Below are positions 151 to 60,301 of a stretch of DNA of 64,000 bases, in pieces. The DNA lies in NCBI GenBank assembly GCA_013138735.1, contig WTCE01000026.1:1-64000 (forward strand), given 5' to 3'. The notes beneath the pieces were generated by a model. That model was not told the DNA's origin and did no database searches. It saw nothing but the letters and a program-made list of their open reading frames with translations. The position numbers and the translations under genes were made by a program. Source of the DNA: Crocinitomix sp. (GTDB lineage Bacteria > Bacteroidota > Bacteroidia > Flavobacteriales_D > Crocinitomicaceae). Positions within the stretch are counted from its first letter, which is position 1. Every line of letters starts with the position of its first letter.

Positions 151-2121
151 ATGTATATAAAAAGAATATCAATAAATAATTTTAGATTACTTAAAGACAC
201 AAATATTCAACTTGATGAAGATAAAAAGCAGGACTTAGCATTACTAATTGGAAAAAACAATACTGGTAAAACTTCATTTATCGTTTTATTTGACAAATTT
301 TTCAGAAATGAAAGCTCCAAGTTTAGTTATAACGACTTCCCTTTAACCGTAAGAGATCAAATATTAAATACTGAAGAAGGTTCACCTCCCATTTCAATAC
401 AGATGAAACTTGAAATAAGTTATTCTAAAAAGGATAATTTAGAAAATATTTCTGATTTCATCTTGGACTTAGACCCAGATGAAAACGTAGTGAAATTACT
501 TTTTAAATGCTCTATTGATATTCCTAAATTAATTAACGATTTATCATTTATCACAAAACAAAGTAATCAGGAAAGGTTTATAATAAAGAGTTTAGGAGAT
601 TACTTAGTCAACAAATATTATGCATATTATAACGAAGAAGACTTATTACCTGCAAATTCAGGGGATTTAGTAGAGAAAACTATATCGGATATTAGGAAAG
701 TGATAAACTATCAAGTTATTCATGCTAAAAGAAATGTTTCAAGTTCAGAGTCTAATGGAAGTAATAAAACCGCTTTATCAGAATTAGCCTCCAAATATTT
801 TAATAAAGAGAATTCCTTTTCGCAAGAAGCGTTTGGCAGTATCAATGATACAATCTTAGAAATGGATGAGACTTTAAACGAACAATACAAAACACATTTT
901 AAAGATTATTTTGATAATGTAAAAGAATTCATTGATGAAGGAAAAGGTGAGCTAAATGTTATTTCAAATTTAGAATCAAAGGAAGTTTTATCAAATCATT
1001 CTAAGGTAGTTTATGGTAATTCCCATAGTTATTTACCAGAGAATCAAAATGGACTAGGGCATTTAAATATTCTCTTTTTATTATTACAAATAGAGATTAA
1101 AAGAAAACTTTTCGAACAGGAAAATAAAGATATTAATCTATTATTCATAGAAGAGCCTGAAGCACATACGCACCCACAGATGCAATATGTTTTTGCAAAA
1201 AGGATTAAAGATATTTTAAAGAAGATTCCAAATTCACAAACGTTTATAACCTCACATTCATCACACATTGTGTCCCAATGTGAATTTGAAGATATTCGAT
1301 ATTTTAAAGTAATTGACAACAATGTATTAATCAAGAATTTTCATAAAGAACTTAAAGAAAAGTATACTTCAACACCTGAACATTTTAAATTTATAAAACA
1401 ATATTTGACTCTTTATACTTCGGAACTATTTTTTGCGGAAAAGATAATTTTTATTGAAGGCTTATCTGAAAAACTTCTTTTGCCCTATTTTATTCAACAG
1501 TACGACAAATCCAGAAAAACAGAAAAGGATTATATACCTCTCACTTCAAAAAACATATCTTTTGTAGAAGTTGGAGCTAATGCAAAGGCATTTCGCCATT
1601 TTATAGAATTCTTAGATATTAAAACTTTGATATTTACGGATATTGATACGACGAAGTACAATACAGATAAAAAAAGATGGAAAGCTTGCTCTGTACAAGA
1701 TGCAGAAAATAGCAGTAACACATCAATAAAGTATTATTTAGATGCTCCAGACGAAGAACCAACAAAAAAAGAGTTTATAGATTGGCTTGCAAAACTTAAG
1801 AAGAACACCACCACCTCAATAAGCAATAAAGTAAATATATCCTATCAACTAGAAGAGAATGGTTATCATGGAAGAAGTTTTGAAGATGCTTTTGTTTGTG
1901 TTAATCTAAATCTGTTAATAGAACAGAAGGTGAAAATTTTAGGTCTTAAAAACATTAATGAACTCAAAGATAGTAAAGCAGATTTTTATGAATTAACAGA
2001 AAGTATTTTAGATAAAAAATCAGATTTTGCTTCATCAATATTATACTTAGCATTAACTGAAGACATTAAATGGAAAACGCCTAGTTATATTGTAGAAGGT
2101 TTAAAATGGATATCAGAATGA
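151..2121 (+). CDS. gajA: Gabija GajA-like OLD-family ATPase/nuclease
   Basis: This 656-residue protein has an N-terminal ABC/SMC-type ATPase and a C-terminal TOPRIM nuclease domain, the architecture of OLD-family endonucleases such as GajA. Visible motifs are the Walker A GKNNTGKT (residues 34-41), the Walker B LLFIEEPEAHTHP (about 330-342), an H-loop TSHSSH (about 367-372), the TOPRIM acidic motif FIEGLSEK (about 434-441) and the TOPRIM LIFTDIDTT motif (about 493-501). In known Gabija systems GajA is a DNA-nicking nuclease whose activity responds to nucleotide depletion during phage infection. The UvrD-like partner overlaps by four bases, so the two are probably translationally coupled. At 656 residues it is somewhat longer than the GajA of Bacillus cereus. 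A TATATTCG element at 129-136 could be the -7 box. A generic OLD nuclease is the alternative, but the helicase partner makes Gabija the better call. Confidence 0.85.
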   Translation: MYIKRISINNFRLLKDTNIQLDEDKKQDLALLIGKNNTGKTSFIVLFDKFFRNESSKFSYNDFPLTVRDQILNTEEGSPPISIQMKLEISYSKKDNLENISDFILDLDPDENVVKLLFKCSIDIPKLINDLSFITKQSNQERFIIKSLGDYLVNKYYAYYNEEDLLPANSGDLVEKTISDIRKVINYQVIHAKRNVSSSESNGSNKTALSELASKYFNKENSFSQEAFGSINDTILEMDETLNEQYKTHFKDYFDNVKEFIDEGKGELNVISNLESKEVLSNHSKVVYGNSHSYLPENQNGLGHLNILFLLLQIEIKRKLFEQENKDINLLFIEEPEAHTHPQMQYVFAKRIKDILKKIPNSQTFITSHSSHIVSQCEFEDIRYFKVIDNNVLIKNFHKELKEKYTSTPEHFKFIKQYLTLYTSELFFAEKIIFIEGLSEKLLLPYFIQQYDKSRKTEKDYIPLTSKNISFVEVGANAKAFRHFIEFLDIKTLIFTDIDTTKYNTDKKRWKACSVQDAENSSNTSIKYYLDAPDEEPTKKEFIDWLAKLKKNTTTSISNKVNISYQLEENGYHGRSFEDAFVCVNLNLLIEQKVKILGLKNINELKDSKADFYELTESILDKKSDFASSILYLALTEDIKWKTPSYIVEGLKWISE

Positions 2122-4103
2122 GCGTAGCTATTGAAAAAATGAAAAAAATTATTGACCTCAATGTAAAAGAGGATGGAGATTTTAAAAACTTCGTATTACA
2201 AGGAGGAGCTGGTAGTGGAAAAACAGAATCATTAAAGGAAATAATTTCATATGTTTCTAATAAATATCCATCAAAAAAAATAGCATGTATTACACTAACT
2301 AATGCAGCTAGTGATGAAATTAAATCTCGTATTGGTCATAATGACAACTTCACTTTTAGTACAATTCATTCATTTTTAGATTCACTAGTTAAAGATTATA
2401 AAAAAAACATTAAAGAAGTTATTCATCATGTTTTTTGTCTAAAAAAAATTGAAACTCAAATACACAAAGATTATAAATCTATACATGAGAAATTCTCTAA
2501 AAAGTTATTTTCCATAGAAGAAATAAATACAGAAAAAGTAATTGGAAAAAGAGATTATGATAAATCTCCTTCTGTCTACAACACAGAAATAAATGATAAA
2601 ATTGATACTCTTAATGAAAAAATAATTCAACTTATTGACTCAAAACCATATAAAGATATAGAGTATAATTTAACAAGATTTGATTCTTTTAAAAACTTAG
2701 GCTTTTCACATAAATCATTAATTACTGTTTCACATGAATTGTGTTTAAAATTTGATTTATTACCTAAAATCATTAGTGATAAATACGATTATATTTTTAT
2801 TGACGAATATCAAGACACAAGTGAGTTCGTTATAAACATATTTCTAAATCTTTTACCTAAGAATAATAAAACGACTCTTGGTCTATTCGGAGATTCAATG
2901 CAAGGTATTTATGATGATGGAATTGGTGATATTAAAAAACATATTGAAATTGGTAGCGTTGTAAAAATTAACAAAGAAGATAATTATAGATGCTCAAAAG
3001 AGGTCATAGATTTTATCAATGTAATTAGGACTGATGAAATAGAGCAAAAACTAGCCTTAAAACGAGAGGAAACGAAAAATCATAGAGCAGGTAGTGTTAG
3101 TTTGCATTATAGTATATGTGGTAAAAAACCTAATGCATTTAGTAAACGAGAAGTAAAAAAAGAGTACTTATCTAAGTTAAATAACTTAATCACTTTAACA
3201 AAGAAAGAATTCAATCAACCTAATACTAAAATATTAATGTTAACGAATAAATCTATTTCTCTAGAAATGGGTTTTGTGAATTTATATAATATTTTCAGTG
3301 CCAGATTCACGGAGGTTAAAGACGATATTGAAAAAGAGTTTTCTAAAATTCAAATAAGTGACATAATAAATTTGTGCAAATTATATTCTTCAAAAAAATA
3401 TAATCCGCTAATTGTTTATCTCAAAAAAAATGGTTTTATAATAAAATCATTTGAAGACAAAAAGAAAATAAGCCAACACTTTGAATATTTATTGAACACT
3501 AAGCTAAATCTTCAGCAAGTCTTGGATTATTGTTTTAAAAACAAATTGATTAAAAAGTCTGAAGGTTTTAAATATTACTTTAACAGAAAAATTGGTTTTT
3601 TAAAAGAGTATGACAGTAATTCTAATTATCAAAAACTCGAAAAACTATTCATAAGTGGGAGTAATACTCCAAAACGTTTAATGGAAAATCATGATATAGA
3701 AATATCTGTTGAAAAGTTTGATGAATTTTATAAAGCTTTAAAAAAGAAAACATTTTACATAGATTTATTTTCTGACAAGTTAGATTTTCAAGAAGTCGTA
3801 AATTATTACAGTTATTTAAACGAAGAAGAAGAAACCGAATACATAACCATGCATAAAACCAAGGGTTCAGGAATAGAAAATGTTATGGTCGTTCTTGACG
3901 AATATTTTTGGAATAAATACAACTTTAAAAGTATCTATGATACATCTATAGAAAATGAAAAAAGACATAAGAATCAAAAACTTTTCTACGTAGCATCATC
4001 AAGAACTATAAAGAATTTAGCTATTGTAAGAATGATTGAAGATGAAAAAGAAGAAGTAATTATGAAAGACTATTTTAAGTATTGTAAAATAAATAAAGTT
4101 TGA
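2118..4103 (+). CDS. gajB: Gabija GajB-like UvrD/Rep superfamily 1 helicase
   Basis: The protein has superfamily 1A helicase motifs in order: Walker A GGAGSGKT (about residues 29-36), an LTNAASDEI motif Ia, Walker B IFIDEYQDTS (about 227-236), motif III LFGDSMQGIYD, motif V MHKTKGSGIENV and motif VI LFYVASSRT. This is the composition of GajB, which works with the GajA nuclease in the Gabija anti-phage complex. The ATG at 2118 is preferred because it gives the classic ATGA overlap with the gajA stop; an in-frame ATG at 2106 would add four residues. At 661 residues it is clearly longer than the roughly 500-residue B. cereus GajB, with extra sequence between motifs Ia and II and between III and V. 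It is very AT- and lysine-rich compared with the rest of the window, which fits horizontal acquisition. Confidence 0.83.
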   Translation: MSVAIEKMKKIIDLNVKEDGDFKNFVLQGGAGSGKTESLKEIISYVSNKYPSKKIACITLTNAASDEIKSRIGHNDNFTFSTIHSFLDSLVKDYKKNIKEVIHHVFCLKKIETQIHKDYKSIHEKFSKKLFSIEEINTEKVIGKRDYDKSPSVYNTEINDKIDTLNEKIIQLIDSKPYKDIEYNLTRFDSFKNLGFSHKSLITVSHELCLKFDLLPKIISDKYDYIFIDEYQDTSEFVINIFLNLLPKNNKTTLGLFGDSMQGIYDDGIGDIKKHIEIGSVVKINKEDNYRCSKEVIDFINVIRTDEIEQKLALKREETKNHRAGSVSLHYSICGKKPNAFSKREVKKEYLSKLNNLITLTKKEFNQPNTKILMLTNKSISLEMGFVNLYNIFSARFTEVKDDIEKEFSKIQISDIINLCKLYSSKKYNPLIVYLKKNGFIIKSFEDKKKISQHFEYLLNTKLNLQQVLDYCFKNKLIKKSEGFKYYFNRKIGFLKEYDSNSNYQKLEKLFISGSNTPKRLMENHDIEISVEKFDEFYKALKKKTFYIDLFSDKLDFQEVVNYYSYLNEEEETEYITMHKTKGSGIENVMVVLDEYFWNKYNFKSIYDTSIENEKRHKNQKLFYVASSRTIKNLAIVRMIEDEKEEVIMKDYFKYCKINKV

Positions 4104-5335: not shown

Positions 5336-6331
5336 ATGAAAAAAACATTACTTATTTTATCTACTCTATTCCTATCATTAATAGGATTTTCTCAAACCTT
5401 TACAGATGGTTATTTCACTTACAATATCATATCACCAAGCGAGGTAAGCCTGAACGACTATGATATGGCGGGAGGCACTGATGTAACAATTCCTGCAACC
5501 GTAAGCTATGATGCAGTAACATACGACATTACTTATATTGGATACCAAGCCTTTATGAGTAATGAATTAACAAGCGTTACAATTCCAGAAGGTGTTACCA
5601 ATATTGTAAATGGTGCTTTTCTATTTAATAACTTAAGTACCGTTACGATACCGAATAGCGTTACGAGTATTTGGGAGGCTGCGTTTGCGAGCAATGAATT
5701 AACCAGCGTTATTCTAGGAGAGAATGTAACAACTATAGCGGCAAATGCTTTCAACGGTAATCTATTAACAACGATTGATCTTCCAGCTGGTGTTACAAGC
5801 ATTGCGAAACAAGTTTTTGCAAATAACAGCTTTACAGATCTTATTATTCCAAACGGCATTACAGAAATTGGTGAAGGATCATTTTCAGGAAACCCATTAA
5901 CTTCCGTTACGAGTATCAATGCAGTCCCACCTAATATTGTTACAGGGATGGGCATAGCAGACAGTTTTGCAGAAGATCGAAGCGACATTTGCCTGTACAT
6001 TCCAATTGGCACGGAGGGCCTTTATGTGACTGATCCTGGCGCAGAATGGATTGGCTTTAAATCTTTTGAAGAAACAACATTTGCTGGAACACCTGATTTT
6101 TATATGACTGATCAATTTAACATTTTTCCTAATCCAGTAAATTCTCAATTCACTGTTATTTCGGATTTTACAATTGAAAGTTTGATGATATTAAACTCGA
6201 ATGGTCGTGTAGTAGAAACGATTATTAATCCAAGTAGCTCAATTGATGTATCCAATCTTGCACAGGGAGTTTATATTTTACAGATACAAACAGTGAAAGG
6301 TTTGTCAAACAAAAAATTTATTAAGAATTAA
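5336..6331 (+). CDS. BspA-type leucine-rich-repeat protein with T9SS sorting domain
   Basis: The 331-residue product has a signal peptide (MKKTLLILSTLFLSLIGFSQ) and about five BspA/LRR_5-type repeats of roughly 23 residues. The repeats have the pattern LTSVTIPEGVTNIVNGAF, with N/E-L-T-S-V-x-I-P and I-x-x-x-A-F in each (about residues 60-190). A type A T9SS C-terminal domain follows, seen as FNIFPNPVNSQF, then SNLAQGVYILQIQT and KKFIKN at the very end. BspA-like repeats usually serve in surface adhesion or binding. The protein should cross the outer membrane through T9SS and lose its C-terminal domain. The reverse-strand ORF across the repeats is a shadow of their periodicity. Confidence 0.88.
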   Translation: MKKTLLILSTLFLSLIGFSQTFTDGYFTYNIISPSEVSLNDYDMAGGTDVTIPATVSYDAVTYDITYIGYQAFMSNELTSVTIPEGVTNIVNGAFLFNNLSTVTIPNSVTSIWEAAFASNELTSVILGENVTTIAANAFNGNLLTTIDLPAGVTSIAKQVFANNSFTDLIIPNGITEIGEGSFSGNPLTSVTSINAVPPNIVTGMGIADSFAEDRSDICLYIPIGTEGLYVTDPGAEWIGFKSFEETTFAGTPDFYMTDQFNIFPNPVNSQFTVISDFTIESLMILNSNGRVVETIINPSSSIDVSNLAQGVYILQIQTVKGLSNKKFIKN

Positions 6332-53645: not shown

Positions 53646-54362
53646 TTATCCAGAAACGGGATTACGCCAACGATTTCCATCTGGATCAGGTTCATAATCA
53701 GTATTACGCTTCACTTTTTTAATATAGGTTTGATCCATCTTTACTTTTCGAGCAATTCCATCTGGTGCAATAATGGTCACATTATCAAAATAAACCCTCG
53801 TTCCCTTCTTCGCTTTTTTAAAGGCGGCCTTAAAATCATCTGTCAGCTTTGCATCCGTATTTGTAAACGTTGTTTTGCCAATATTAATTGACCATTCAAG
53901 TATTCGAAACTTAACACCCGTTAAATGAACGCTTTCATCATACCTAACAGAAAAGCGGTTTTGGTGAAAAAGATTTGTTTCTTTCACATGGTTAAAATCC
54001 TTGTTCATAGCAATTCCACCCAAATAAATTTTTGGCTTTGGCAATGCTTTTATTATATATCGCTCGCTCCATAAACTAGTCGTATCAGATCCGAGAATAC
54101 ATTTGATACTCAAAGTTAAATTGCGCTTTCCTGCTTTCGGCCTAACATAAAACTGTCCTTTATTCCGCATGGTCACTTCTGCATCTGCAGATGAAACATA
54201 GACCGAGTCGCATACTTCGCAGGTATAAATTTCTAATGGATTATCATAGCCACGATAAAGAATCCGTGTATCAGGATTGCTAATCAAACCTTTGATTGCG
54301 TTATTTTGACTAAAGCTCAAAACGCCTTGCATAAGTATCCAAGAAAAAATCGAAAATTTCAT
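53646..54362 (-). CDS. Stand-alone GldM C-terminal-domain-like protein
   Basis: The ATG at 54362 gives a 238-residue product with a signal peptide (MKFSIFSWILMQGVLSFSQ). The rest follows the C-terminal half of GldM, the T9SS motor shaft protein: TRILYRGYDNPLEIYTC (GldM: L-Y-r-G-v-x-N-P-l), then GQFYVRPKAGKRNLTLSI, KALPKPKIYLGGIAMN, VKFRILEWSINIGK and RVYFDNVTIIAPDGIARKV. No transmembrane N-terminus or the other GldM domains are present. It would be periplasmic. It may be a paralogue of the GldM D3/D4 region; its task is unknown. Confidence 0.68.
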   Translation of the reverse strand: MKFSIFSWILMQGVLSFSQNNAIKGLISNPDTRILYRGYDNPLEIYTCEVCDSVYVSSADAEVTMRNKGQFYVRPKAGKRNLTLSIKCILGSDTTSLWSERYIIKALPKPKIYLGGIAMNKDFNHVKETNLFHQNRFSVRYDESVHLTGVKFRILEWSINIGKTTFTNTDAKLTDDFKAAFKKAKKGTRVYFDNVTIIAPDGIARKVKMDQTYIKKVKRNTDYEPDPDGNRWRNPVSG

Positions 54363-54485
54363 ATTAGAGTAAAGATAAAATAAAAACACTTGACTAACAA
54401 AGCGTCCTTAATAAAAATAAACGTTGCGTGAAATTTGCATTTCTAACTGAAATACAATACATTAGGGACAACCAATAACCAATTT

Positions 54486-54603: not shown

Positions 54604-55584
54604 CTATTGCACAAAACTAATACGTTCTTGATAGACGCTATCATTCACATCAGTTACACGTAATAGATAGACTCCTGTATTCAAACCTAACTGACTTAAA
54701 TCCAACAAAGTATCAACCCCTTGGTAAACTATTCGTCCTAATGCATCCGTTAAAACAACCGTCTTAAGTTTTATTTTTGTCTGAATAGTCAATGAACCAT
54801 TCGTTGGATTAGGATAAACCACTAGCACATTTAATTCAGTTTCTGGAATGGAAACGCTAGGATCATTACTATTGATGACTCCAACTGCATCTAAATCAAA
54901 ACCACCACTTTCAAAATCGGTTTTAAATGGATCATTAATTATATGTGCATGACTATCATACGTACTATGTGCCCAATCAATGGCGCCGATTACATCAATA
55001 ATACGCACATACTTTACATCCGTTAAATCAATACCTGGTTCATCCACAATATCCTCCAAGTCGAATGGCGTTCCAAAACCTTGTCTGTATTTCCCGGCTA
55101 AATTGTAAATTTCGGTAGGATCCGTATCTCCAAAAGTTCCAGTTTGAACATCTGTCTGCGTCAATGATCTAGAAGGGACCCGTACAAAGTTTATACCGTC
55201 TGAACTCACCTCCACATGCGCCAATTCTAAATAAGTATCTGAAAAACTATTTTCAAAAACCAAAAAGTCAAAGCCTTCTCCATTATGAAAAGCATATTCA
55301 AAAGTTACTGTGATGGAACCATTATCACCCAAACTCACCACATCTGCGCTATTGCCCTCGGCGTACCCTAAGGCATCCGTTGAGTCTCCGTAAGAGGCCA
55401 ACGGTCCATCAGGAATTGACATATCTTCTAATCCGCGATTAAACGATACAACCTCAGTAGCCCAAGCAAATATTACGCTCGAGTCTTTGTGAATCGCAGT
55501 TGTCCCTGGCTCCCCAGCCGCCGGGGCATACTGTGCAAATGAAGTAAGTGAAGTGAGAAGCGTGATAAATGTTAATGTTTTCAT
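54604..55584 (-). CDS. T9SS type A secreted protein of the cobalamin operon
   Basis: The 326-residue product has a signal peptide (MKTLTFITLLTSLTSFAQ), a large beta-rich domain with GSITVTFEYAFHNGEGFDFLVFEN, FVRVPSRSLTQTDV, GFGTPFDLEDIVDEPGIDL and GGFDLDAVGVIN, and a T9SS type A domain (VVYPNPTNGSLTIQ, then LGLNTGVYLLRVT and ERISFVQ). It is last in the riboswitch-controlled operon, separated from the propeller lipoprotein gene by a heptamer array. The domain type is known from secreted Bacteroidota proteins but its function is not; a B12-capture role is inferred only from context. Confidence 0.83.
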   Translation of the reverse strand: MKTLTFITLLTSLTSFAQYAPAAGEPGTTAIHKDSSVIFAWATEVVSFNRGLEDMSIPDGPLASYGDSTDALGYAEGNSADVVSLGDNGSITVTFEYAFHNGEGFDFLVFENSFSDTYLELAHVEVSSDGINFVRVPSRSLTQTDVQTGTFGDTDPTEIYNLAGKYRQGFGTPFDLEDIVDEPGIDLTDVKYVRIIDVIGAIDWAHSTYDSHAHIINDPFKTDFESGGFDLDAVGVINSNDPSVSIPETELNVLVVYPNPTNGSLTIQTKIKLKTVVLTDALGRIVYQGVDTLLDLSQLGLNTGVYLLRVTDVNDSVYQERISFVQ

Positions 55585-55693: not shown

Positions 55694-56740
55694 CTAATTG
55701 TTAAATATCAAATCTGTTGCGACAAGGCCGGCTTTGAATTCGAATAAAAAATTGCCTGATAGATTATAGGCCATAATTATTGATGAATTCACGTAGCCGT
55801 TAGCGTCTATGCAAAATAAGCGCTCATTTGTTTTGTCAATAATTATTCCCCCGAATGTTTCGTAGCTTGATACATCCATAAAAGCAGTTGGTTCGACTGC
55901 TTCTGTTACAGTATTATATCTATATACCGCTTCTTCGCTCTCGTTGTAGAAATACATCCAATTATTGTAATAAGCCAATGAAGTTATTTCCATTTCAGTG
56001 GTTTCTAAAACCGTATTCGTAAGCGGATCAATGCGCAGTAATGCTGGTGAAACATCATCATAATTACCATTTGAAAGCAAGTAAATCTCGTCCTGATCAT
56101 CTACAATCATTTGGGTGCAATTGATGCGGGTTTCAATGGTTTCCTCAACTAACAAGGTCGACAAGTTAATTACCGACAATGTAGAGTCATAAATTGGGTA
56201 ATGCAAGCCGCCAGAATTCGAAACGTAAAGTTTATCATTGACAATTGCTAAGCCATCAGGATTTGCGCCTACATCTATTAAATCAATAACTGAATTGGAT
56301 ATGAGGTCAATCACGCCAATTGTTCCATCAAAATTACAAACAAAAGCACGAGTTCCATTAACATTAATATGCCTTGGCTCACGTGCATTTATGCCATCAA
56401 AAAATGGGATTTGTACAACTGTTTTTAAAGTTTTTCTATCAATAATTTCAACTTGACTAGAGATGTCCACAGCGATAATTATATATTCTGTCCCTCCAAA
56501 TGAATAGGTGTCGAAATCATTGGCCGTATCACCTAACCCTCTGCCATTCTCAGACATGAAAACTTGCTGATAGACTGTTGTTCCATCATAAAATGTTAAG
56601 GAGGCATTATTTTGTTCAAACAAACCTTCATTCAGCACCACTATACCTGACTCGTATTGAGCAGGAACGGTTGGTGGTTCTGGTTTTTTCTTACAGGCTA
56701 TTAAAACGAATAGCACAGTGATTAAGTAATAATATTTCAT
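55694..56740 (-). CDS. YncE/DUF5074-type propeller lipoprotein, BtuG-like
   Basis: The 348-residue product has a lipoprotein signal (MKYYYLITVLFVLIACKKK, lipobox LIAC) and repeated blades such as VEIIDRKTLKTVVQIPF, IGVIDLISNSVIDLIDVG and LSVINLSTLLVEETIETR, a seven-bladed YncE-like beta-propeller. Bacteroides BtuG, a surface lipoprotein of this fold, binds vitamin B12 with very high affinity at the BtuB receptor. Here the gene follows a BtuB-like receptor with a four-base overlap, in an operon behind a cobalamin riboswitch, so the BtuG-like call rests on context and fold. Direct binding is not shown. Confidence 0.8.
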   Translation of the reverse strand: MKYYYLITVLFVLIACKKKPEPPTVPAQYESGIVVLNEGLFEQNNASLTFYDGTTVYQQVFMSENGRGLGDTANDFDTYSFGGTEYIIIAVDISSQVEIIDRKTLKTVVQIPFFDGINAREPRHINVNGTRAFVCNFDGTIGVIDLISNSVIDLIDVGANPDGLAIVNDKLYVSNSGGLHYPIYDSTLSVINLSTLLVEETIETRINCTQMIVDDQDEIYLLSNGNYDDVSPALLRIDPLTNTVLETTEMEITSLAYYNNWMYFYNESEEAVYRYNTVTEAVEPTAFMDVSSYETFGGIIIDKTNERLFCIDANGYVNSSIIMAYNLSGNFLFEFKAGLVATDLIFNN

Positions 56741-58725
56741 TTAGCTAGCGAATATTTTAAGCGTAATTGCAGATATCTTCCTGGCATTGGAAAGCTACGA
56801 ATTACTTGATAATTCTTATTTAAAAGGTTCATTAATTTCAAATCAACCAAAAAGCTACTCTTTTCAAAATGTATCTTTTTAGAGATTCCTAGATTAATGT
56901 CTACAAAACCGGGTAATAGATTGGCATAAATGTTTTCATTCAAAGAAAAACGATAACCAGATATTAGTACGTTCGAACTAAAACTAAATCCTTTAACCTC
57001 CCAACTTACACCGCTCGTTGAAGAGTAATAGGGCGTATACGGGATTTGGCTCCCATACGTTGGACTCAAAATATTGGTAATATCTATAGAAGAATTGAAG
57101 GAGTGATTACTATTTAAGGTTAATTGCGATTGTTTAATCTTAAATACCACCAAGGCGCCAATATCAATACCCCGAATATCGGTTTCGCCTATATTTTGCA
57201 TACTCCAATTAAAAAGGTCTTTGGTTGGAATTGCTACAATTTTATTTTTAACCCGATTGTAGTAGCCATCAATTGTCAATTCTGCCGACCAATCTTTTTG
57301 TTCATGCCCATAAGTGATCCCTAAATTAAAGAGATTTGCATCCTCGGGTTCCAAACCTGTATTGCCAATAAAATTAAAATACAAATCATTAAACGTTGGC
57401 ATTCGAAAGGTATTCTTATAAAAAGCCCTAAAACGGAGTTCAGTTTTTGAGAAAGGGCGAAACCCCATGGCTACAAAAGGTGAAAACTTTAAGAATTCTC
57501 GATCCTCCGAAGTTGTGGATTCGTATGTGTCTTGAATGAATTGCGCCGTGACATTTCCATCCAGTTTAAACTTTCCGAACATAGTACTGCCACCAATTAC
57601 ACTGTTGTTTTGCAATCGAATTGGGCGACCCGTGATATTACTTCCAAACAAACTACTTTTAACCAGGTCCGTTCCAATAAAAACGCGCTCGTTTGGGAAA
57701 CGAAAAGATTTGGATAGTAGCGTACCGACATCTAGATTCTCCTGATAGTAGACCACATTAATAAAACCATCTAAGTTCAAATAATAAGGGTCTTGATAGT
57801 TGGTGAAATTATCTTGTAAATTAAAATGACTTTGTAAGTTCCATTTCCCAATACGCAGTTCATGTATAAGATTTAAACGCCAATCTTGATTCCACAATTT
57901 TTGATCATTCGACGGATTAAACAAGACAGCAGCACCCGGCAATTCTTGCTCATTTTTATTCAAAAAGGCACTAATCGTAATTTTATTTTTCCGTCCAATA
58001 AATCCACCGACTATCCGCGCCCTATAATTAAATAGCGCCGTGTTTAATCTGGTGTTAATAATATCCGCACTTGACTCTGGATGAATGAATTTATATTGTC
58101 CATTGCCAAATTTTACCATACCCTGGCCCCCAATAAAAAATCTTTTACCTAATCTCGTTTGAGCAAAAAGTCCTTTCTCGTATGCATTAATTGATGTTGA
58201 GTTGGAATAAAGTCCCAAGCGAAATTTATGCGGTTGACTGGCCAAAATTGAGTTTAAAGCAATGGTATTGGCTGGTATATAAGCCGAAGCTGAAGAACGA
58301 GAATCTACTGCTCGGCCAGAGCTAAATGAAATTTTTTCTAATCCAAATAATTCAAAGGATGATAAATTGATCACGCCAGTTTGCAAATTTGGAATTTGAA
58401 TACCATCCAATTGAACCGCAGTGTGACCAGCTCCAAGGCTGCGGAAGGAAAGCGTTTTCACACCACCTATTCCCCCATAATCGCGCAACTGAACACCCGG
58501 TATATATTTTAGCGCCTCACCTACATCTTTCGCTCCAAGCTGATCTAATTTTGCAGCTGTTAATTCAAAATGCGGAATGCTTGCGCTTATCACGGCTAAC
58601 CTCAAAATGCTGTCTTGCTTCGCGAAAACAGGAATAGTTTGCAAATATTTTGAAGTATCTTGGGCGCTACTTAAAAGCACAAAAAGGATGCAAAAACTCG
58701 TTGATATATAGCGTGTTAATTGCAT
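56737..58725 (-). CDS. btuB: TonB-dependent receptor, BtuB-like (cobalamin)
   Basis: The 662-residue product has a signal peptide and a TonB plug (LDQLGAKDVGEALKYIPGVQLRDYGGIGGVKTLSFRSLGAGHTAV, GVINLSSFELFGLEKISFSSGRAV; about residues 60-165). The beta-barrel ends KLMNLLNKNYQVIRSFPMPGRYLQLRLKYSLAK; the YQ-x-x-x-x-x-M-P-G-R tail is common in BtuB/CirA-type receptors. It lacks the carboxypeptidase-regulatory N-terminal domain of SusC-type receptors. The cobalamin riboswitch upstream and the BtuG-like gene downstream support B12 as the ligand. Confidence 0.88.
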   Translation of the reverse strand: MQLTRYISTSFCILFVLLSSAQDTSKYLQTIPVFAKQDSILRLAVISASIPHFELTAAKLDQLGAKDVGEALKYIPGVQLRDYGGIGGVKTLSFRSLGAGHTAVQLDGIQIPNLQTGVINLSSFELFGLEKISFSSGRAVDSRSSASAYIPANTIALNSILASQPHKFRLGLYSNSTSINAYEKGLFAQTRLGKRFFIGGQGMVKFGNGQYKFIHPESSADIINTRLNTALFNYRARIVGGFIGRKNKITISAFLNKNEQELPGAAVLFNPSNDQKLWNQDWRLNLIHELRIGKWNLQSHFNLQDNFTNYQDPYYLNLDGFINVVYYQENLDVGTLLSKSFRFPNERVFIGTDLVKSSLFGSNITGRPIRLQNNSVIGGSTMFGKFKLDGNVTAQFIQDTYESTTSEDREFLKFSPFVAMGFRPFSKTELRFRAFYKNTFRMPTFNDLYFNFIGNTGLEPEDANLFNLGITYGHEQKDWSAELTIDGYYNRVKNKIVAIPTKDLFNWSMQNIGETDIRGIDIGALVVFKIKQSQLTLNSNHSFNSSIDITNILSPTYGSQIPYTPYYSSTSGVSWEVKGFSFSSNVLISGYRFSLNENIYANLLPGFVDINLGISKKIHFEKSSFLVDLKLMNLLNKNYQVIRSFPMPGRYLQLRLKYSLAK

Positions 58726-58756: not shown

Positions 58757-60301
58757 TTATTGAATGATTAATTTTTGTTGGGTACTAATGCCATTTACGG
58801 TTGCCGAAACAACATAAATTCCCTTTGCCAAGCTAGAAACATCAATCGTGTTTAAACCTGTTTGATACGTTTGCGTTAACACTAATTTGCCTTGTCCATT
58901 AAGAATTTCAACTCTAGCATTCTCGCCCAATTCAATTGTAAACTCTTTGCTTGCAGGATTTGGATAAAGTGTCAATCCAGCGGTTTCCGCCTCATCAATA
59001 CCCCAAACTGCAAATCCAACTTCTGGTAAACTCGGCGGTGTCGCGGGCGACCAAGTTGAATAAGAACATCCAAACCAATCTCCATCAGACATTTCAGTGG
59101 TAATTCCTGCATTTACAATCCAATCACCTACATTTTGTGCACTCCAAGTACTCCAATAGTTTGGAGCACCAGCAATTCCATCTTCACCAGAAGCACCATA
59201 GCTAATGTCATTTAAAAAACCACCATCCAAGTTGAACATAAGACCAAAAACTTCTGCATCTTCTAAACCAATCATCACCTCTTGTGCTGTAATGGTTTCC
59301 GCTTCAAACAAGTAACCAAATGTATAAGATTCCCCTGGCAACCATTCATTAAAATCAATCACCAGTACTGCTTTATTCTCTCCCGTTCCAAAAATAAACT
59401 CTACGTCAGACAATGGAACATCTGCAGAATCTAAGGCCGAAATAGGGTTAAATGGTCGCCTTGCTGGCCACGCATCATAAGAACAGCCGAACCAATCGCC
59501 CGAACTAATGCTTGTACCTATTCCTGCATTCGCGGTCCAATCTGTTAAATTAGTACCACTATATGTATTCCAATAATGCGGATCAGCTGCTAAACCTGCT
59601 AAACCGTTGAACATAATATCATCCAAAAAAGGTCCTGCATTCACCAATAAATTAACATCCGCTGCAGCAATATCATTCAACATTGTTTCGGCATCCATTG
59701 CTCCATCAAAACGATATCCCCAAGCGTAGGTCATAGCTTCACCTGAAGGACCAACAACAAAATCAACTACTAAAACTGCCGAATCTGCTCCTTCGCCAAC
59801 CCAAAACTGAATCATTGAAGCGTCATAATTTGCAGATTCATAAGCAGGAAGTGGTTCTCCTGGAAGAATTGCTGGATCAAAATCGGTATAAGAACATCCC
59901 CACCAATCACCGTTGGCCAAAACTTCCGCCAAACCATCATTCGATTCCCAAGCGGTTTCTGCCGTTTTACTCCAAATTCCCCAAAAAGCAGGATCTCCAC
60001 TAACACCCGTATGCGCATTAAAGTGAATTTGAGTCAAAAAACCACCTTCAATTAAGAAGTCTAGTTTTGCCTCATCCGCGGCAATTGCAGTCAATGCATC
60101 TTCGCCCGTTACACTGCCCGTCGCATCAAATAAAAATCCCCAGGCGTACGAGGTGTCAACCGTTTCATCTAAAAAATCGATCACAATGACAGCCGTGTCT
60201 GGACCATCTCCAACATAATAAATTAAATCACTTTGCGTAAACTGAGATTTTCCAGTTAATGACGCGAGCATGATTGCTCCAAATAGTACTATTTTTCTCA
60301 T
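58757..60301 (-). CDS. Three-repeat T9SS-exported protein of the cobalamin operon
   Basis: The 514-residue product has a signal peptide (MRKIVLFGAIMLASLTGKSQ) and three tandem domains of about 130 residues (about 22-155, 157-290 and 292-430). Each has V-G-x-G-x-D-x-A-V-x-V-I/V-D-F, then YAWG-(F/Y)-x-F-D, a helix with D-A-L or M-L and AAD, a segment GFL-x-x-I, WxxWS or YSGT, and (G)DW-(F/W)-GCSY. A T9SS type A domain ends it (LYPNPASKEFTI, then LAKGIYVVSA). It is the first gene after the cobalamin riboswitch. I could not name the domain; a B12-binding or scavenging role is the inference. Confidence 0.82.
   Translation of the reverse strand: MRKIVLFGAIMLASLTGKSQFTQSDLIYYVGDGPDTAVIVIDFLDETVDTSYAWGFLFDATGSVTGEDALTAIAADEAKLDFLIEGGFLTQIHFNAHTGVSGDPAFWGIWSKTAETAWESNDGLAEVLANGDWWGCSYTDFDPAILPGEPLPAYESANYDASMIQFWVGEGADSAVLVVDFVVGPSGEAMTYAWGYRFDGAMDAETMLNDIAAADVNLLVNAGPFLDDIMFNGLAGLAADPHYWNTYSGTNLTDWTANAGIGTSISSGDWFGCSYDAWPARRPFNPISALDSADVPLSDVEFIFGTGENKAVLVIDFNEWLPGESYTFGYLFEAETITAQEVMIGLEDAEVFGLMFNLDGGFLNDISYGASGEDGIAGAPNYWSTWSAQNVGDWIVNAGITTEMSDGDWFGCSYSTWSPATPPSLPEVGFAVWGIDEAETAGLTLYPNPASKEFTIELGENARVEILNGQGKLVLTQTYQTGLNTIDVSSLAKGIYVVSATVNGISTQQKLIIQ

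Follow-up and report, generated by a model that had tools for sequence, protein, structure and literature searches.

The window analysed here is a stretch of 64,000 nucleotides of a Crocinitomix contig, and carries on its minus strand a gene for an exported protein of 514 amino acids (58757-60301), identified as an open reading frame and by its orthologues. A hydrophobic N-terminal stretch, read by eye as the predicted signal peptide (about residues 1-19, MRKIVLFGAIMLASLTGKS, 60245-60301), is followed by three repeats at residues 28-142 (59876-60220), 165-279 (59465-59809) and 302-418 (59048-59398), the last one being the least conserved copy between species. Residues 445-514 (58760-58969) form a T9SS type A C-terminal sorting domain, recognised by Pfam Por_Secre_tail (6.3e-15) and by NCBIfam TIGR04183 (4.5e-14). 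The protein combines the two elements of type A cargo, the sorting domain and, as judged by eye, the signal peptide, and the tail is in keeping with the export by T9SS proposed in the earlier note. Repeat 1 was delimited from alignment, AlphaFold and Foldseek as a transcobalamin-beta-like domain, repeats 2 and 3 from the repeat alignment.

That the three tandem copies are homologous to each other is beyond doubt from their sequences: pairwise identity is about 36-43% over the aligned stretch, and Smith-Waterman scores of 194-227 compare with shuffle maxima of 56-60 (z 26-33). The motifs listed in the earlier note were found as VGxG..A, YAWG/YTFG and DW[FW]GCSY, although copy 3 starts with FGTGENKAV and is the one with YTFG. 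The AAD motif is present as IAADE in copy 1 and AAAD in copy 2, but copy 3 has EDAE in its place, and the repeat length of about 130 residues corresponds to a core of about 115, or about 137 with linkers. No further copy was found in the own genome by a query-profile search.

A cobalamin riboswitch aptamer (RF00174, 60434-60687, minus strand; cmscan 74.1 bits, E 2.2e-16) lies upstream, its end 132 nt away from the start codon of the three-repeat gene, which is the first gene behind it. It is the sole cobalamin riboswitch of the whole 6.84-Mb assembly. On the same strand lie a BtuB-like TonB-dependent receptor (56737-58725; Pfam TonB barrel and plug, with TIGR01779 TonB-B12 as best NCBIfam match at 2e-24, under its cut-off) and a BtuG-type beta-propeller lipoprotein (55694-56740; PDB 8blw, B. 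theta BtuG1, 1.5e-37; 8ptf 2e-36; DUF5074 1e-11). Gene 4 of the operon (54604-55584, minus strand) encodes a BtuH-like domain protein with a T9SS tail of its own (4e-9). The profile of the gene-4 family, A3, matched 8blw at 7e-5, most strongly in the BtuH part of that chain, and orthologues of gene 4 matched the BtuH of another locus, L011, at 4e-4 to 2e-6. Since the gene-4 model was of middling quality (pLDDT 75) and unrelated beta-sandwiches made up most of its Foldseek matches, it is the profile match that carries the identification as BtuH, which is a weak one. On this BtuH-like domain the T9SS tail replaces the lipoprotein signal, which gives the operon another candidate B12 binder exported by T9SS.

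Immediately behind the B12 operon, 53646-54389 (minus strand) encodes a short protein made up almost entirely of GldM C-terminal domains. It occupies the same place in loci L021, L022 and L023, and a stand-alone paralogue of the T9SS motor tip is a possible identity. Elsewhere in the window, an overlapping gene pair at 151-4103 (plus strand) is likely a complete Gabija system (PADLOC GajA 1.5e-199, GajB 1.2e-247), and 5336-6331 (plus strand) encodes a leucine-rich (BspA-like) repeat protein whose C-terminus looked T9SS-tail-like by eye.

CbiC catalyses one specific reaction in the de novo synthesis of corrins. It was not found in the genome, which has 16 B12-binding-domain matches, and B12 import is therefore expected to matter for this organism, the absence of one enzyme being only an indication of such a need.

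A scan of 84,980 species genomes with two patterns derived from the repeat alignment yielded 19 loci (Crocinitomix, other Flavobacteriales, Chitinophagales, Owenweeksia-like and Chlorobiota bins), to which L010 was added from a phylum survey. Orthologues with the same three-repeat architecture were present in 11 loci besides the one described here. The earlier note had staked its interpretation on the domain keeping company with the riboswitch, and this it did: Rfam detected RF00174 upstream, on the strand of the gene, in every one of the 20 repeat loci, as well as in each of the three loci examined that carry a distant form of the domain. Further loci from a survey of the order, some of whose genomes may share species with the first 19, were also riboswitch-linked, the exception being a partial copy (L056) with none within the short stretch covered. 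The repeat gene came first behind the riboswitch in 17 loci and second, after BtuB, in L031-L033; the premise that the first gene behind a cobalamin riboswitch acts directly on cobalamin is accordingly not a general one. With several contigs ending early, a BtuB homologue was counted in 16 of the 20 loci, BtuG in 17 and a homologue of the BtuH-like gene 4 in 17, and in L010 the riboswitch was followed by the repeat gene alone.

Few genomes carry the domain, which the query profile detected in 8 out of 396 from Bacteroidota and in 9 out of 199 from the order, the own genome counted. Three copies are typical of Crocinitomicaceae-like loci, other loci have two, L036 and L038 have one, and the masked locus L039 has more. 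Copies of the same index shared 59%, 61% and 50% identity between loci, as compared to 44% for copies of different index. This orthology by position indicates that the triplication is old and has been maintained.

No family match was obtained for the repeat in Pfam, NCBIfam or the PDB sequences. Scores for PKD_5 and 'Kirola' were at chance level, and a weak match to bradavidin (E 0.12) was taken as chance as well. The profile and structure search of a single repeat, as suggested in the earlier note, thus returned no family by sequence, but the predicted structure led to transcobalamin-type beta-domains. AlphaFold2, run on repeat 1 with an alignment of 45 copies, produced a model with a mean pLDDT of 95.6 and a pTM of 0.87. 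It predicts strands at 10-17 and 26-33, a helix at 41-51 and later strands up to 107-114. Two additional predicted strands after the helix, at 55-60 and 63-69, would correspond to the extra beta-hairpin of the transcobalamin-like clade. In a Foldseek search against 350,542 PDB chains, the top 19 matches were the beta-domains of transcobalamin, haptocorrin and intrinsic factor together with 3u7z, all with a probability of 1.00, and the next class, ubiquitin-like domains, reached at most 0.66. The model matched the transcobalamin beta-domain over its full length with TM 0.61-0.67; for 5np4, the isolated human domain with cyanocobalamin, the values were 0.62/0.67. The bacterial structure 3u7z is probably a DUF4430-type protein. 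Since the Foldseek E-values were around 1e-3, we place the resemblance at the level of superfamily or fold and do not consider it close. At this level, the repeat is predicted to adopt the beta-grasp fold of the transcobalamin/intrinsic-factor beta-domain. The two conserved glycines of the transcobalamin-like clade (after strand 2 and before strand 3) may have counterparts in G61 (82%) and in an FDG consensus after strand 2, neither of which is invariant.

The curated Pfam profile DUF4430 (PF14478), which human haptocorrin and Firmicutes proteins match, matched none of the 45 copies at E<=1, and for this reason we did not file the repeat as DUF4430. In hhalign, the narrow 45-row alignment compared with transcobalamin plus DUF4430 gave 0.13 with a score of 13.3, inside the null and not significant. 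A profile enlarged from the 45 copies by L010, L039 and the long-insert relatives described below gave P 0.0022 with a score of 22.8, whereas 60 column-shuffled controls reached 16.8 at most; its alignment spanned nearly the full length and kept the register of the predicted strands. The signal, which appears only after this addition, provides moderate support for sequence kinship of the repeat to transcobalamin and DUF4430. The transcobalamin, haptocorrin and intrinsic factor sequences in this comparison were PDB chains and the DUF4430 rows were plasmid records, those checked matching PF14478; a plasmid search with a long-insert relative gave no match.

The transcobalamin-like clade is defined by the hairpin after the helix (Burroughs et al. 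2007, PMC1796856). In the repeat family, F63, L64, the following N-D-I, W82, T84, W85, N96 and G98 are invariant or nearly so. When placed on the model, the invariant W82, N96 and G98 and the FLNDI strand would fall within segments that contact B12 in transcobalamin (PMC1796856). Strands 1, 2 and 5 are highly conserved as well, so that the conserved residues are compatible with a binding face there but are not unique to it. In the animal carriers, an alpha-toroid closes the B12 site. The isolated transcobalamin beta-domain nevertheless binds cyanocobalamin and cobinamide in crystals (PMC5599065), and its share of the buried ligand surface is about equal to that of the alpha-domain (PMC11107200). 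It is thus plausible that B12 is bound by a beta-domain alone or in tandem, although the affinity of a lone one may be low since the toroid that completes the site is absent.

Among structures in the PDB, those nearest to the repeat are the beta-domains of the animal carriers (5np4, 2bb5, 4kki, 2pmv), with which it shares the predicted beta-grasp with extra strands after the helix and, in the case of intrinsic factor, the N-x-G-[IV] and YW segments (PLNEGVADY and TYWQFL in intrinsic factor). Identity to these proteins, however, is 9-18%, and the repeat protein is bacterial, T9SS-exported, built of three tandem copies and devoid of an alpha/alpha-toroid. With the SLBB transcobalamin-like clade and DUF4430 it has in common the predicted fold, the extracellular location and a predicted role in B12 scavenging. 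That clade was described from Gram-positives, planctomycetes and euryarchaea (PMC1796856); in Latilactobacillus a DUF4430 gene adjoins ECF transporter genes, and no DUF4430 match was found in 148 Bacteroidota genomes. The Bacteroides proteins BtuG, BtuH, BtuJ, BtuK and BtuL are likewise extracellular accessory proteins of B12 uptake from the same type of riboswitch operon, but they are lipoproteins and not T9SS cargo, and comprise a propeller, the BtuH domain, a jelly-roll and others.

The repeat protein could not be identified with any of these. It had no match to BtuG in the PDB, and it is the third gene of the operon that does match. For BtuH, neither 7biz nor 8blw was matched, and the BtuH of another locus was found easily. 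BtuJ (DUF4465) was dismissed since no DUF4465 match was obtained, true DUF4465 genes scoring 2e-18 to 5e-48, and since the model is a beta-grasp and not a jelly-roll. The repeat profile did not match the Bacteroides BtuK/BtuL candidates either, which were picked by gene order (L123, L106); genes in the BtuK position in Bacteroides are PKD_3/DUF5074, with DUF5074 on one of two in L123. As the DUF4430 test failed, a toroid is absent and the repeat is not BtuG, BtuH or BtuJ, we take it to be of the transcobalamin-like beta-grasp kind outside any named family, the comparison with BtuK and BtuL covering the candidates picked by gene order.

Relatives with a long insert were found in cobalamin-riboswitch loci of other Bacteroidota. 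They keep the VGxG..A, WG, TGEDML, YWSYW and GSWD segments, but differ by some 40-60 residues inserted between their halves, by their single copy and by being fused or adjacent to a DUF5074 propeller. In L107 the domain is a 262-aa lipoprotein encoded between BtuH and a DUF5074 propeller; in L108 and L109 it lies N-terminal to the propeller in one protein of about 750 aa with a T9SS tail. The L109 propeller is DUF5074 (4e-113) and matches PDB 9s6c at 3e-14. A related arrangement occurs behind the cobalamin riboswitch in L036 (3791-5494) and L038 (6939-8642), where a putative N-terminal propeller, called by eye and with no significant Pfam match, precedes one repeat and a T9SS tail. Such fused or neighbouring positions point to a joint action of the domain and the propeller of B12 loci. 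One genome, G266, has two separate cobalamin-riboswitch loci, the solo two-repeat gene of L010 and the long-insert domain with DUF5074 propeller of L109.

From these data we consider it about 75% probable that the gene product is a surface-exposed or released cobalamin-capture protein, for which we infer B12 binding, the binding face, the stoichiometry and the hand-over to BtuG. Low intracellular cobalamin would make the riboswitch permit expression of the operon, the signal peptide would bring the protein across the inner membrane and T9SS across the outer one. Each of the three beta-grasp domains would then hold a cobamide on the face formed by the hairpin, strands 3-4 and the connector of strands 4 and 5, and the bound vitamin would be passed to BtuG/BtuB for TonB-dependent uptake. 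The affinity of BtuG for B12 was reported to be femtomolar (PMC6143338). Tentatively, and with the odds somewhat against it, the protein may even be a bacterial counterpart of intrinsic factor, that is, T9SS-secreted tandem domains that capture cobalamin, where a BtuG/BtuK-type propeller or a neighbouring repeat contributes the half-site for which animals use the alpha-toroid.

The constant co-occurrence with BtuB and BtuG and the propeller fusions would also suit an accessory scaffold whose repeats attach to BtuG/BtuB or to one another and not to the vitamin, such as a surface lid or a docking protein of the uptake complex; in B. theta, BtuL and BtuK2 from the same kind of loci did not bind B12 (PMC12751083). 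We consider such a role unlikely, since it is B12-binding beta-domains in particular that the repeat resembles, and not the beta-grasp at large, and since the L010 gene stands solo behind its own riboswitch. A different corrinoid ligand (cobinamide, other cobamides or corrinoid-loaded proteins), with repeats that broaden or filter the input of BtuB, would fit the binding of cobinamide by the transcobalamin beta-domain (PMC5599065) and the three copies, mutually diverged yet kept as separate orthologous lines. The sequence, however, indicates no particular cobamide, and the probability of this option appears low. Least credible to us is an ordinary T9SS adhesin or carbohydrate-binding repeat that lies in a B12 operon by chance and owes its fold likeness to convergence. 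Tandem domains are common in T9SS cargo, the genome has about 60 T9SS-tail matches and the profile support is only moderate, but a chance association is hard to reconcile with a cobalamin riboswitch in 20 of 20 loci across Flavobacteriales, Chitinophagales and Chlorobiota bins and with a repeat confined to this gene in its own genome.

Cobalamin capture is the reading that we retain. The undescribed type of B12-capturing protein proposed in the earlier note is strongly favoured and was right in direction, although known structural relatives exist in the transcobalamin-like clade fold of SLBB/DUF4430. No description of the domain was found in open-access papers.

Many Bacteroidota rely on B12 that they scavenge; the capture proteins known so far, BtuG, BtuH, BtuJ and BtuK, were found in gut Bacteroides. 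The repeat protein is a candidate B12-capture family for environmental Flavobacteriales, unnamed in the profile libraries searched. Its predicted fold is otherwise known from human B12 carriers and bears on the origin of the transcobalamin domain. B12 capture is a specific claim that can be tested with a domain of 115 residues, and the tandem repeats would represent a small scaffold for it. If the counterpart to intrinsic factor holds true, extracellular B12 binders of Bacteroidota would comprise one more family, a T9SS cargo with this fold.
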